A DNA stretch of 64,000 nucleotides from Peptococcaceae bacterium BRH_c8a. Lineage in GTDB: Bacteria > Bacillota > Desulfotomaculia > Desulfotomaculales > Desulfallaceae. The translations under genes were made by a program, and so were the position numbers. The notes beneath the pieces were generated by a model. That model was given only the letters and a program-made list of their open reading frames with translations. It did not search any database and had not been told where the DNA came from. The stretch covers positions 140,886 to 204,885 of the forward strand of contig LADP01000024.1 of NCBI GenBank assembly GCA_000961575.1, given 5' to 3'. Shown here piece after piece: positions 5,733 through 64,000 of this stretch (the stretch's first letter is position 1; the number at the start of each line of letters is the position of its first letter).

Positions 5733-7196
<1,464 letters not shown>

Positions 7197-59333: not shown

Positions 59334-59606
59334 ATGTTCCAAAAAATAGAAAACCAATACTATCTCGAAGAATTCATTCTGCCCTTTGAAGGCAAATTAA
59401 GAGCCGATAACCGCTGGGTAAAACTAGCTAAGCTTATTCCATGGAAAAGTATCGAAGAACGCTATGCCAACCGTTTTACTAGCCACCGCGGTCAGAAGGC
59501 CAAACCCGTCCGGATGGCCCTCGGTGCACTAATCATCAAAGAAAGATGCGGTTTCACCGACCGTGAAACAGTGGAGCAGATCACTGAGAACCCCTACCTT
59601 CAGTAC
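59334..59606 (+). CDS. IS transposase, 5' exon
   Basis: 91 codons of a DDE transposase of the IS5/IS1182-like group with the DUF772 N-terminal domain: YLEEFILPFEGKLRADNRWV, KPVRMALGALIIKERCGFTD and TVEQITENPYLQY. ATG start 8 bases after TGGAGGGAC. The last six bases CAGTAC and the six before (TACCTT) serve as candidate binding sites for the intron that follows. If read through without splicing, the frame stops 13 codons into the intron. Continues at 63484. Confidence 0.88.
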
Positions 59607-60152
59607 GTGTGTCACGAAGACATGAAAGGATGGTGGCAACACTAACATTTCATTGTCATGCTCTATGAAAGATGAGGGTAGCCCCCTCGGCATCGCTTTA
59701 CAGGAAGGGGTGTCAAACTACTTCAAGGTGCTGCAATCAAAAGTTGTGGTGCTGAGCGTTGAAGAAAAGGCTGTACAAAACAGTCAAGTGTGAATCATGG
59801 AGTCGAGCGAAAGCGAACCGCGGATGACGCGTCGTAATAGGGCATTTAGCATTGTCAAAACCGGGCAGGTACTGGGCCCAGGGACGAGCCTGGAAGAAAC
59901 CTGTTTACTGACCAGGCGGCAATCGGCGTAAATGCGGCGAGAACATGATTTAGGCTTTCATAGGGAACGTGAGAACCTTATCATGGATGCCAACGGAAAA
60001 CTCAAATGTTTAAAGCATAAGAGTGAATACGAATGACATGATAAGGGGCGGATCTGCCCGTAGTAGTGAAGAAGCAACTGTAATGGATGTGGAGCGAAGG
60101 GGCAGAATCATCGAATTCTGGGAATGTCAACCATTCGTATGGGAGGAACATT

Positions 60153-61397
60153 TTGGACAGAAGGAAACCGTACGAGATATCACAAAAAGCAGTACTTCTA
60201 GCCTTTCGAAAGGTCAAAGCAAATGGAGGCGCAGCAGGGATTGATGGAATCACCATTGAGAAATATGAGCAAAATCTGAGAAACAACTTATACAAGCTTT
60301 GGAACCGGATGTCATCAGGCAGTTATATGCCAAAACCGGTACGGGGCGTAGAGATTCCGAAAAAGAACGGCGGGATAAGACTACTGGGAATTCCCACAGT
60401 GGAAGACCGTGTAGCCCAAATGACTGCCCGTTTATACTTCGAACCCCTGGTGGAACCAATCTTTTGTGAAGACTCCTATGGCTACAGACCAAACAAATCT
60501 GCACTGGACGCCATACACAAAACCCGAGAAAGGTGCTGGAAAACAGACTGGGTAGTAGAATTTGACATCAAAGGACTGTTTGATAATCTGGATCATGAGT
60601 TGCTAATGAAGGCTGTGACGAAGCATACTGATAATCCATGGGTGCTTCTTTACATCGCTAGATGGCTGAAAACATCTTTGATAATGCCCAATGGAGAGAC
60701 CAAGGCGAGGACATCCGGAACCCCTCAAGGAGGGGTCATCAGTCCAGTTATTGCAAATCTCTTTATGCACTATGCATTTGACCGTTGGATGCAAAGAAAA
60801 TATCCACACCTCAACTGGGCCCGGTATGCAGATGATGGGTTGGTGCATTGCAGGACACATCAAGAAGCAATGGAAATCATGGATACCTTGAAGCAACGCA
60901 TGGAAGAATGCCGATTGGAGATACATCCCGAGAAGAGTAGAATCATCTATTGCAAAGATTACAACCGCAAAGGAAATTATGAAATCACAAGCTTCGATTT
61001 TCTTGGCTACACTTTCCGGCCTCGATGGGTTCGAAGTCAAAAAGGGAAAATATTTCTCGGCTTTGGGCCTGCAGCCAGTGCGAAAGCAACGAAAGGCTTG
61101 CGGGACAAAATTCGCTCATGGAAATTGCACAATAGGTGTCACAATGAGCTAAAGGATCTTGCAACATGGATGAATCCGATTGTTCGCGGTTGGATTAACT
61201 ACTATGGCAAATACCAGAAAAGCACACTGCACTCAGTCATGCTGGTGATCAATCGAGCATTGACCTTATGGGCAAGGAGAAAGTATCGTAAAATAAAGCA
61301 TAAAAAGAGTCAATCGATTAAATGGCTCCATAACTATGCGAAATGGAACCCTACACTTTTTGCTCACTGGGAGATGGGCTATATGCCTGCGGGATGA
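60153..61397 (+). CDS. ltrA: Group II intron A reverse transcriptase/maturase
   Basis: 414 residues from TTG 60153, preferred over ATG 60087 because GGGAGGA precedes it and the product then begins MDRRKPYEISQKAV as in relatives. RT blocks: GAAGIDGITIEKYEQNL, IPKKNGGIRLLGIPTVEDRV, DSYGYRPNKSALDAI, EFDIKGLFDNLDHELL, GTPQGGVISPVIANL and the active site RYADD (YADD at 225-228). The C-terminal maturase (GIIM/X) domain includes MNPIVRGWINYYGKYQKSTL. No HNH endonuclease is present. It helps the intron fold and copies it into new DNA sites. All RT motifs look intact. Confidence 0.95.
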   Translation: MDRRKPYEISQKAVLLAFRKVKANGGAAGIDGITIEKYEQNLRNNLYKLWNRMSSGSYMPKPVRGVEIPKKNGGIRLLGIPTVEDRVAQMTARLYFEPLVEPIFCEDSYGYRPNKSALDAIHKTRERCWKTDWVVEFDIKGLFDNLDHELLMKAVTKHTDNPWVLLYIARWLKTSLIMPNGETKARTSGTPQGGVISPVIANLFMHYAFDRWMQRKYPHLNWARYADDGLVHCRTHQEAMEIMDTLKQRMEECRLEIHPEKSRIIYCKDYNRKGNYEITSFDFLGYTFRPRWVRSQKGKIFLGFGPAASAKATKGLRDKIRSWKLHNRCHNELKDLATWMNPIVRGWINYYGKYQKSTLHSVMLVINRALTLWARRKYRKIKHKKSQSIKWLHNYAKWNPTLFAHWEMGYMPAG

Positions 61398-61403
61398 TGA
61401 TGG

Positions 61404-61436
61404 GAGCCGGATGAGCCGAGAGGTTCATGTCCGGTT
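61404..61436 (+). ncRNA. Domain V of group II intron A (all but the last base)
   Basis: GAGCCGGATGAGCC, GAGA loop, GGTTCATGTCCGGTT: the catalytic hairpin with its AGC triad and the two-base bulge. The family's domain V ends in ...GGTTC; the missing C is the first base after intron B (63443). This places the inner intron exactly at the end of domain V. Confidence 0.85.
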
Positions 61437-61950
61437 GTATGTCCAGCAAAGGCTGGTGTATTTAGCAGGAGACAAACCTGCCGGGGTAAAAGTCAGAAGC
61501 CCCGTAGCTTGGATAGCAGGGTTAAGGGAAACCGAGATTCTGAAGTCTATCGACAATATCACCCAAGGGATGATAGCAAGTTGCCAGGCCGTAGCGAAAG
61601 CGAACGCATAGGTGGCCCCGAAAGTGCGTAGTCCCGAAGGCTGAGCCCGCAACCGTAGGGTGAAAGCAGCATGGGCAGTTGAAAACTGATTGATACAACT
61701 GTACCACTTCGGCGGGGTGGTAGCGACAGCATGGTAACAAGGATACACTAAGCAACTGGAGAAGCCCTCCTTGCCCTGGGAAGAAATTTCTAGAGAAAGG
61801 TAGGTTCTATAACCAGAAACACTGGGAAGTGAGCCGAAGGCAAGAGGGTGGCGGATGGGTTCGTAAGAACAATGAACCGGGGTAATGCCGGGGGAGTAAA
61901 GGAACCCTACTGTTAGCAATTCTTCCAACAAAACGGGAGGTAAGGACGAG

Positions 61951-63255
61951 ATGACAAAGGCGTCCATAAACTTACAAGACCTGAGAAGGAAGATATACAT
62001 CAAGGCGAAGGCCGATAAAACCTGGAGGTTCTGGGGACTGTACGTTCATGTATGTAAGATGGAAACTCTTCAAGAAGCTTACAAAATGGCAAAAAGCAAG
62101 AAAGGTGCACCTGGAATTGATGGTATAACCTTTGACGATATTGAGGCGGGTGGAGTAGAAACATTTCTACAACAAATACAGCAGGAACTTATTTCTGGCA
62201 CGTATCTGCCTAACAAAAATCGTAGAAAGGAAATCCCCAAGGGAAATGGGAAATACAGGACACTGGGGATACCAACAATTCGTGACCGAGTAGTTCAGGG
62301 AGCACTTAAGCTTATACTTGAGCCAATCTTTGAAGCCGACTTCCAAGAAGGGTCATATGGATACCGACCTAAGAGGACTCCCCACCAAGCAATTGATAGT
62401 GTAGCTAAAGCAGTTGTGGCAAATAAAACACGGATTATCGATGTTGACCTAAGGTCTTATTTTGATACAGTACGCCATGATTTATTACTTAAAAAGGTGG
62501 CAGAACGAGTCAACGATAACGATGTGATGCGATTGCTTAAACTAATACTTAAAGCAAGTGGTAAACGGGGTGTTCCACAAGGCGGAGTTATTTCCCCGCT
62601 TTTAGCAAATTTATACCTCAATGAGGTAGATAAAATGCTCGAAAAGGCAAAAGAAGTAACACGGCAAGGGCGATACACATATATCGAATATGCCCGATTT
62701 GCCGATGACCTTGTAATCTTAGTTGATGGTTACCCTAAATGGGGCTGGCTGGCAAAGGCGGCCTATAAACGCTTACTTGAAGAATTAATTAAACTTGACG
62801 TACAACTCAATGAAGAGAAAACCCGATTATTGAACCTAACCAGCGGGGAAAGTTTTGGCTTCTTAGGCTTTGACTTTCGAAGATCACGAACTCGCAAAGG
62901 TAAATGGGGAGTACTATTTACGCCGAAAATGAAGGCACGTACTAAAATATTAGCCCAACTTAAAGAAACCTTCCGTAGTTTTCAATCACAACCAGTGGAT
63001 AGGGTTATTGAACTTATTAACCCCGTTCTACGTGGCTGGGTGAATTATTACCGAATTGGGAACTCTAGCCGGTGCTTTGGCTATGTAAGGGACTGGCTTG
63101 AGAAGAAAGTACGGCGACATCTAATGCGAGCCCGCAACCGTAAAGGCTTTGGCTGGGACAGGTGGAATAGGAAATGGCTGTACCAGAACTTAGGTCTATA
63201 CTCTGATTATAAGGTACGGCACTTTAAAAGTCTGAAAGCGCTGCCAGCACAATAG
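61951..63255 (+). CDS. ltrA: Group II intron B reverse transcriptase/maturase
   Basis: 434 residues, ATG after CGGGAGGTAAGG. RT blocks: GAPGIDGITFDDIEAGGVET, IPKGNGKYRTLGIPTIRDRV, GSYGYRPKRTPHQAID, DVDLRSYFDTVRHDLL, GVPQGGVISPLLANL and the active site in YARFADDL, where FADD (250-253) replaces the usual YADD. The C-terminal maturase domain (INPVLRGWVNYYRIGNSSRC) and a basic tail (RRHLMRARNRKGFGWDRWNR) follow; no HNH domain. It belongs to a different lineage from the maturase of intron A. Apparently intact. Confidence 0.94.
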   Translation: MTKASINLQDLRRKIYIKAKADKTWRFWGLYVHVCKMETLQEAYKMAKSKKGAPGIDGITFDDIEAGGVETFLQQIQQELISGTYLPNKNRRKEIPKGNGKYRTLGIPTIRDRVVQGALKLILEPIFEADFQEGSYGYRPKRTPHQAIDSVAKAVVANKTRIIDVDLRSYFDTVRHDLLLKKVAERVNDNDVMRLLKLILKASGKRGVPQGGVISPLLANLYLNEVDKMLEKAKEVTRQGRYTYIEYARFADDLVILVDGYPKWGWLAKAAYKRLLEELIKLDVQLNEEKTRLLNLTSGESFGFLGFDFRRSRTRKGKWGVLFTPKMKARTKILAQLKETFRSFQSQPVDRVIELINPVLRGWVNYYRIGNSSRCFGYVRDWLEKKVRRHLMRARNRKGFGWDRWNRKWLYQNLGLYSDYKVRHFKSLKALPAQ

Positions 63256-63287
63256 GCCTCATAACCCTTGATGTGAAGTTAGCAGGA

Positions 63288-63320
63288 AAGCGCAGTGCGG
63301 GAAATCCGCACGCTGCGTTT
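63288..63320 (+). ncRNA. Domain V of group II intron B
   Basis: AAGCGCAGTGCGG, GAAA loop, TCCGCACGCTGCGTTT: AGC triad, GAAA tetraloop and CG bulge as in group II domain V. About 120 bases of further structured sequence follow before the proposed 3' end, longer than a plain domain VI. Confidence 0.78.
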
Positions 63321-63483
63321 GACGAGGCGGGGATTGGAAACGGGGTAGATGACCCGCTTGAGGGGGACACTCGCCCGAAAGGGGAGAACCGGCTTGGCCT
63401 CACAAGGTCTATAACTGCCACCGCGCCAGTCCTCGACCCTACCTGAGAGGGCCTGGGGGTGAAACTCCCCTGGGCTACTCACC

Positions 63484-64000
63484 TTCATCGGCCTTAGGGA
63501 ATACCAGAACCGAGCACCGTTTGACCCTTCCCTTATGGTCCACTTTCGTAAACGTTTTGGCAACAAAGCTTTAATAGAAATCAACGAAGAAATCTGCCGT
63601 GCCGCCCGGGAAGCTGATGAGAAGAAAGACAACGATGACAATAAACCCGAGCCGCCCAAAGATGGCAATAAGGAAACAGTTGAAGGAAAAAATAACCCGG
63701 ACAAAGATTCCTTTGAAGTATACCCGGCCAACCAAGGCAAACTGATCCTGGACGCCACCTGTGCACCAGCGGACATACGCTACCCCACAGACCTTTCCCT
63801 GCTTAACGAAGCCAGGGAGAAGTTGGATGATATTATCGACATCATACACAAAACCCTTGGCAAACCAGGCAAAAGACCGCGCACTTACCGCCAGATCGCC
63901 CGCAAGAGCTATCTCAATATTATACGGAACAGAAAGCCCGGTAAGAAAACAATCCGCAAAGCCATTGGTAAACAACTGCGCTATGTCAAACGCAACCTTG
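63484..64000 (+). CDS. IS transposase, 3' exon (runs off window)
   Basis: Open frame to the window end with FIGLREYQNRAPFDPSLMVH, FRKRFGNKALIEINEEICRA, a Lys/Asp/Pro-rich linker, then KLILDATCAPADIRYPTDLS, which carries the first catalytic Asp of the DDE triad, and RPRTYRQIARKSYLNII. Together with 59334-59606 it forms one continuous transposase after removal of both introns. The remaining catalytic residues lie beyond the window. Confidence 0.88.

Follow-up and report, generated by a model that had tools for sequence, protein, structure and literature searches.

Nested group II introns in a split transposase gene and recurrent insertion of the inner intron's family into domain V

Introduction

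How does a single interruption of a transposase gene come to hold two maturases and two ribozymes? The question is raised by a 64,000-nt stretch of contig LADP01000024.1 from Peptococcaceae bacterium BRH_c8a (assembly GCA_000961575.1, positions 140,886 to 204,885; the whole stretch is termed the window), in which the two halves of an IS5-family transposase flank an insert at 59607-63483. A sequence-only reading of this DNA had proposed that the insert is a group II intron (intron A) whose domain V (D5) is itself interrupted by a second group II intron (intron B). Sequence comparisons now establish the nesting, its exact borders, the recurrence of D5-type sites (33 of them) among relatives of B and the covariation of two exon-binding sites (EBS1 and EBS2) with the target. 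We consider it highly probable that the transposase was split by A, that A was split by B at the next-to-last base of its D5, and that B belongs to a widespread family which likely spreads by homing into D5.

Results

Two introns between the halves of one transposase

Both transposase pieces are recognised by NF033578 (103 bits for the 5' and 106 bits for the 3' piece), each half scoring under the cut-off of 275, which applies to the full-length protein. As the sequence-only reading had noticed, two maturases and two D5s lie between them. The maturases are group II-type reverse transcriptase (RT)/maturases (430 and 379 bits with TIGR04416, cut-off 300), both in uninterrupted open reading frames (ORFs); the insert also holds two different segments of ribozyme domains D1-D4, and the first of the two D5 matches ends at 61436. 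The features, all on the forward strand, are as follows.

59334..59606 (+), 5' exon, first part of the IS5-family transposase, ending CAGTAC (NF033578, 103 bits; identical to an uninterrupted copy, L101)
59607..61436 (+), outer intron A, 5' part, from the GTGTG start to base 33 of D5
59674..59789 (+), A: ribozyme segment group-II-D1D4-2 (RF01999, 108 bits)
59869..59874 (+), A: EBS1 candidate GTACTG, 6/6 pairing with exon CAGTAC
60087..61397 (+), A: RT/maturase ORF, 436 amino acids (aa) (TIGR04416, RVT_1, GIIM)
61404..61436 (+), A: D5 bases 1-33, ending CCGGTT, with the insertion point of B directly after
61437..63442 (+), inner intron B, 2006 nt, GTATGTCCAG ... CGACCCTAC
61463..61599 (+), B: ribozyme segment group-II-D1D4-4 (RF02003, 108 bits)
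61622..61627 (+), B: putative EBS2 region, covarying with exon positions -12 to -7
61651..61656 (+), B: putative EBS1 AACCGT, covarying with exon positions -6 to -1
61951..63255 (+), B: RT/maturase ORF, 434 aa
63289..63319 (+), B: own D5, 3' strand TGCGTT, versus CCGGTT/ACGGTT in most targets
63443..63443 (+), A: last base of D5 (34), pairing with G61404
63444..63483 (+), A: domain VI (D6), carrying the bulged A, through to the 3' end of intron A
63484..64000 (+), 3' exon, second part of the transposase, up to the contig end (NF033578, 106 bits)

Both A and B comprise the ribozyme domains D1-D6 with a catalytic D5 and carry an RT/maturase frame inside the intron. The D5/D6 part of B scores 39.5 bits with RF00029, slightly below the gathering score of 40, and the D5 of A reaches 32.2 bits in the window versus 49.8 bits in an uninterrupted A-type copy, the low value arising because B cuts this D5. 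Intron A starts with GTGTG and B with GTATG, the latter off GUGYG at position 3; a GTGYG start is seen in many relatives of B. The only Pfam domains found in the two RTs were RVT_1 and GIIM, with no endonuclease domain in either, which would fit insertion at replication forks, a route known of such introns.

Exact borders at both levels of nesting

Contig C5 of the same genome carries the same transposase uninterrupted (L101; 273 + 133 bases at 100% identity, junction CAGTAC/TTCATC), and because this copy joins both halves directly, the insert extends over 3877 nt (59607-63483), subject to a slip of one base that a repeated C allows. The assembly breaks at the repeated transposase, the contig of the window ending in its second half and contig C5 starting inside another copy.

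In genome G033, the matches of an insert-free A-type intron to 61365-61436 and to 63443-63485 follow directly on each other. A search with the RT of A over 113 genomes (the order and class searches covered 113 genomes each, apparently identical sets) gave nine A-type loci, in seven of which a D5 ending CCGGTT (six) or ACGGTT (one) passes directly into CTGAGAGG or CTGTGAGAGG, the other two being the window and a fragment that lacks a D5. From these uninterrupted relatives it follows that A measures 1871 nt and that B is inserted, with 2006 nt, between bases 33 and 34 of the D5 of A; both sizes are normal, as had been stated. The predicted break of A's D5 at 61436 and its resumption, with the last base and D6, at 63443-63483 match the junction of the seven relatives. 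We also checked for solo copies of A that end near 61450 with a D6 of their own, and the relatives run from CCGGTT directly into the sequence of 63443-63483. With B removed, the joined 75 nt of A's D5 and D6 fold into two clean hairpins with a bulged A in D6 at -45.3 kcal/mol, versus -28.3 +/- 3.5 kcal/mol for shuffled sequences (z -4.84).

An intron inside an intron, with borders given by an uninterrupted host, is thus found at both levels (L101 for the transposase, the G033 copy and the seven A-type loci for A), and the splitting of A by B between D5 bases 33 and 34, i.e., a pair of nested and not tandem group II introns (a twintron), is confirmed. An EBS1 candidate of A that matches the transposase exon, as had been noted, is GTACTG at 59869 (6/6 with CAGTAC).

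Relatives of B and their insertion sites

The two nearest relatives of B (88-89% identity, both in G033) occupy the corresponding D5 point of two other host introns. The wider sample included plasmid relatives at 60-68% identity (26 records, eight of them fetched) and the best 80 of 112 confirmed matches in a species-level genome collection, a census biased by the retention of the best matches and by the use of the query family. From 94 loci, 81 had a usable 5' exon, representing 73 distinct 34-nt 5' exons, with the distant relatives L004, L005, and L007 counted in; the 13 that were dropped are 11 without a 5' end found, L079 (11 bases only), and L067 (a run of N).

At 33 of the 73 distinct sites, the 5' exon closes in a D5 geometry right at the insertion point, or at 33 of 71 without L045 and L077, two copies kept as non-D5 whose assigned 5' ends are doubtful, as they do not align with the family. 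The rule behind this count asks for 7 pairs, a 2-nt bulge, and 5 or 6 pairs, with at most one mismatch per stem; earlier rules (one with 12 fixed pairs, and a loose one with 18/75 sites and a background of 0.7%) had missed 31-nt D5s with a five-base loop. As the sites were already known when the final rule was fixed, every position of the same loci served to determine its background; 0.19% of 766,573 positions fit it, B junctions excluded and real D5s of other introns included. Recurrence at the same D5 position in unrelated hosts is hence above background, and D5, which had been regarded as a rare insertion site, turns out to be the largest single kind of site seen in the family of B. Three further sites (L023, L044, and L046) look by eye like variant or degenerate D5s and are not among the 33.

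According to record titles, isolates with D5-sited copies belong to the Pseudomonadota (Bradyrhizobium, Paraburkholderia, Burkholderia, Caballeronia, Cupriavidus), Bacillota (Sporomusa), Thermodesulfobacteriota (Desulforhopalus, Desulfofustis), and Bacteroidota (Parapedobacter). Such copies also occur in metagenome bins of further phyla and of one archaeon, where contigs may be misassigned, while viral contigs yielded three distant relatives only (41%). A pattern census of the phylum of the window (398 genomes) gave seven matches, with two D5-sited copies, those of the window and of L117. The presence of many B relatives at the same D5 point across several bacterial phyla makes it likely that the family homes to other introns. 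In an RT tree built from 75 distinct sequences among 87 proteins that had over 300 aligned residues (L067 and L079 labelled as non-D5 despite an unreadable 5' exon, L023, L044, and L046 as degenerate or variant D5), D5-sited copies are spread over the tree and over several phyla, and the D5 label shows clustering (a count as low arose in 1 of 500 shuffles).

Among relatives at other sites, L004, L005, and L007 (the last on contig C39 of the genome of the window), with 52-61% identity, lie in a conserved stretch of a DDE-type transposase frame, and the four Candidatus Megaera loci L017 and L082-L084 (60% identity) in a conserved stretch of proP-type transporter-like genes, both assignments having been made by eye. 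Eight loci of Bradyrhizobium erythrophlei GAS478 (L054-L056, L075, L081, L089, L090, and L092) share an identical non-D5 5' exon, which suggests that the intron probably travels within a multicopy element there.

Target choice by EBS1 and EBS2

Exon-binding sites were mapped by correlating a MAFFT alignment of the first 330 nt of the 73 introns with their exons; this replaced an earlier regular-expression search, which in many loci had hit a stretch other than EBS1 and had failed in 39. Two hexamers covary with the exon and on this ground are taken to be EBS1 and EBS2 of B. The former, at offset 214 (AACCGT, 61651-61656), covaries with exon positions -6 to -1 and forms a mean of 5.25 of 6 Watson-Crick pairs over 71 sites versus 2.59 after shuffling; the latter, at offset 185 (61622-61627), covaries with positions -12 to -7 (mean 3.63 versus 2.12 over 73 sites), the shuffles here and below overstating significance, as related sequences do not count as independent. 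An EBS1 at the AACCGG hexamers of B, the candidate of the sequence-only reading, was rejected, since covariation over the 71 sites favours AACCGT at 61651, which pairs 5/6 with CCGGTT of the window and 6/6 with ACGGTT of other hosts. Taken separately, the D5 sites give 5.30 EBS1 pairs versus 4.77 shuffled (maximum of 2000 shuffles, 5.15) and the 38 non-D5 sites 5.21 versus 1.82, so that EBS1 follows both D5 variants and other targets; examples (EBS1/target) are AACCGA/TCGGTT, AACTGT/ACAGTT, ATCCGT/CCGGAT, GGGTCT/AGACCC, and CGGAGC/GCTCCG. For EBS2, the 40 non-D5 sites give 3.25 versus 1.56. One B-type relative (L047, around 1875) lies in an apparent domain VI near the 3' end of its host, with EBS1 AGTAGA versus CCTACT.

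The host introns

In the window, the host D1-D4 segment precedes B by 1763 nt; segments at the expected distance, about 1.76-1.90 kb, were also found in three of five D5-sited plasmid loci (L012, L015, L018) and in five of the 12 D5-sited genome loci examined (L040, L042, L043, L048, L050). The hosts belong to the ribozyme groups D1D4-2 (window, L015, L042, L043, L048), D1D4-4 (L012, L040, L050), and, at a single locus, D1D4-6 (L018); three host groups argue for D5 in general as the target, not for one host family. No ribozyme group was given to the hosts of L013 and L046, where the D1-D4 matches are 2.3 and 2.8 kb away and another D5 match intervenes. Both loci hold further group II pieces ahead of the host of B, consisting of D1-D4 and a D5 match (L013, 1053-1798; L046, 1689-3550), which points to intron clusters.

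Of the 25 D5 sites that have at least 1.7 kb of upstream DNA, 11 show an upstream ORF that spans at least 380 aa and contains an RT-like motif, in a mechanical test based only on length, an end within 250 nt of D5, and a YADD-like motif. The inner, B-type frame reaches at least 400 aa at 25 of the 33 D5 sites.

At L006 and L008 (G033 contig C1, about 4199300-4202800), a B-type intron lies in a D5, its downstream flank being an A-type D6, and the B-type RT gene is in turn split just after its FADD codons by an uninterrupted A-type intron; by this reciprocal nesting, A-type and B-type introns invade each other. At L015, a stretch from 5435, GTGTGTCCAGG, directly after the 3' end of the D5-sited B copy, resembles a second intron start; stacking of two introns at one D5 point was considered and dropped, as the stretch does not continue as an intron.

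The D5 of B itself

The own D5s of B-type introns have 3' strands such as TGCGTT, TGCGTG, or TGGGTT, most targets having CCGGTT or ACGGTT. In B of the window, EBS1 matches the own D5 at only 3 of 6 positions. In the copies at 27 of the 33 D5 sites, those whose own D5 was found, EBS1 pairs with the target at 5.41 of 6 positions and with the own D5 at 3.00 of 6, the target being the better partner in 26 copies, with one tie (L034). The difference of B's own D5 at the target strand thus likely exempts B from self-insertion.

The tied copy, L034 (around 1552), is a B-type intron in a D5 identical to its own, with EBS1 AACGTA and an upstream ORF of 434 aa that looks B-type by eye. At L089, a B-type intron is interrupted in its D5, which ends CTGCGTG, by a second B-type copy (about 6366-7186) that is shortened to about 820 nt and has EBS1 CACGCA, pairing 6/6 with this D5. 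Judged by these hexamers, the two copies nested in B-type D5s carry retuned EBS1s. In L051 and L099, which have non-D5 targets, the own D5 ends in CCGGTT; the remaining non-D5 relatives with a D5 found have the changed own strand in common, so that the change reflects few events and has no tie to D5 homing on the tree. We infer that the changed strand may have been selected for.

Discussion

The findings suggest the following course of events. An RNA-protein particle of B would use EBS1/EBS2 pairing to recognise D5 by its conserved 3' strand and would reverse-splice into the D5 DNA. With B in place, the D5 of A would be open and its D6 displaced by 2 kb, such that A could neither splice nor move; once B is spliced out, D5 would be restored without a scar, A could splice, and the transposase could be made. 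Given the split D5, an obligate order of splicing is a sound prediction, with B expected to leave before A. B would thereby gate its host intron and could persist at a site that its hosts cannot freely change without losing catalysis, presumably at little harm to the cell, because these hosts are mobile elements themselves. We further regard it as moderately likely that the cosmopolitan clan of B represents hyperparasites of group II introns, which home by RNA-DNA pairing into D5, the one strand that no such ribozyme can give up, keep the host off until they remove themselves, and have their own D5 recoded against self-targeting.

Several findings weigh against this account. By rule, 40 of the 73 distinct sites are not D5, and the rule itself was adjusted after the sites had been seen. 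On the RT tree, D5-sited copies do not form a single clade with all members at D5, and the tree calls for no fewer than 13 switches between D5 and other sites, so that the preference for D5 is not absolute and retargeting has occurred repeatedly; B. erythrophlei GAS478, a group of Acidobacteria, and the Ca. Megaera relatives use other sites. Within the D5 sites, the EBS2 signal is weak (4.09 versus 3.74; shuffle maximum 4.06). L019 and L059, with a CGGTT-matched EBS1, are inserted at CCGGTT outside any D5, and in the phylum census two of the seven matches are B-like copies at CGGTT without D5 (L116, L118) and three are not B-like. These four CGGTT sites suggest that pairing, not the hairpin as such, decides. 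Reading of the D5 hairpin as a DNA structure, which would have a parallel in group IIC introns and terminators, was considered as a requirement and rejected, L019, L059, and other non-D5 sites speaking against it. Finally, 14 of the 25 hosts fail the ORF test, and many of the nests may for this reason be dead.

The last point bears on an alternative that we consider unlikely, yet the strongest of those weighed, namely that the nests are relics, old insertions in introns that were already inactive, with neither intron splicing. The degenerate appearance of some D5s (L023, L044) would agree with it as well. In the window, however, both ORFs are open, the ribozyme segments score 108 bits each, and A's D5 joins its D6 scarlessly; moreover, the transposase exons are 100% identical to the uninterrupted copy over 406 bases, which suggests a recent insertion.

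Distinctly less probable is a chance pile-up, in which B would insert by short EBS1 pairing at any CGGTT without specialisation on introns. The CGGTT sites outside D5 (L019, L059, L116, L118) are what such behaviour would produce, as are relatives with other EBS1s at other matching sites. The D5 geometry, though, covers 0.19% of positions even in intron-rich loci as compared with 33 of 73 sites, EBS1 tracks the D5 variants (TCGGTT/AACCGA, ACAGTT/AACTGT, CCGGAT/ATCCGT), and EBS2 pairing at D5 sites exceeds the shuffles, if weakly. A tandem, with A ending near 61450 in a domain VI of its own and B following, would agree with the normal sizes of 1871 and 2006 nt but can be dismissed as next to impossible, as A relatives pass from CCGGTT straight into the sequence of 63443-63483, the uninterrupted G033 copy skips exactly 61437-63442, the empty transposase site covers both introns, and the B relatives with 88-89% identity start at the same GTATGTCCAG in other D5s.

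Homing of B's family into D5, if true, would mean that a family of retroelements has specialised on other mobile elements and can spread from one intron group to another while sparing cellular genes. Three points become open to testing, namely an obligate splicing order of nested ribozymes, a control of the inner intron over the spread of its host, and self-exemption via compensated changes in a nearly invariant catalytic hairpin. Domain V is described, in the section concerned of PMC4424553, as highly conserved and catalytic and is considered to correspond to the spliceosomal U2-U6 core. D5 nesting also bears on surveys that pair each RT with the nearest domain V, one of which reports, in the part relevant here, missing outer introns of twintrons (PMC8919778).

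A bacterial intron family that targets the domain V of other introns was not found described in the open-licence literature searched, and an earlier report in subscription papers is possible; a D5 twintron, in Euglena psbF, and bacterial and archaeal intron-in-intron homing at other sites are known. The Trichodesmium pair Tr.e.I7/I8 resembles B and A in being a bacterial twintron in a gene, and its sequential splicing was shown by RT-PCR; it differs in having its inner intron in the host's domain I and, in the section describing it, is reported as a single case (PMC4649490). In Thermosynechococcus elongatus, insertion of TeI3 (F3) in TeI4 (F1) is, as with B, the work of a bacterial intron family that has adapted to one conserved site within another group II intron, the site there lying, according to the excerpt in question, between two start codons of the host ORF, with ORF-less inner introns and one related host family (PMC2882425). 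The site of B, in contrast, is in the ribozyme core, and its hosts come from three ribozyme groups. For the nested introns of Methanosarcina acetivorans, the original study, going by its title, reportedly deals with homing into related intron ORFs, not into D5. As summarised in one portion of PMC4424553, they share with B the repeated site-specific homing into group II introns and differ in forming, in an archaeon, arrays with as many as five introns nested. The D5 twintron known from the Euglena gracilis chloroplast gene psbF, reported by Copertino and Hallick in 1991, is, in the passage that treats it (PMC8393795), a single chloroplast case, whereas B stands for an RT-encoding bacterial lineage found at the same D5 point of many unrelated hosts, with its EBS1 retuned.

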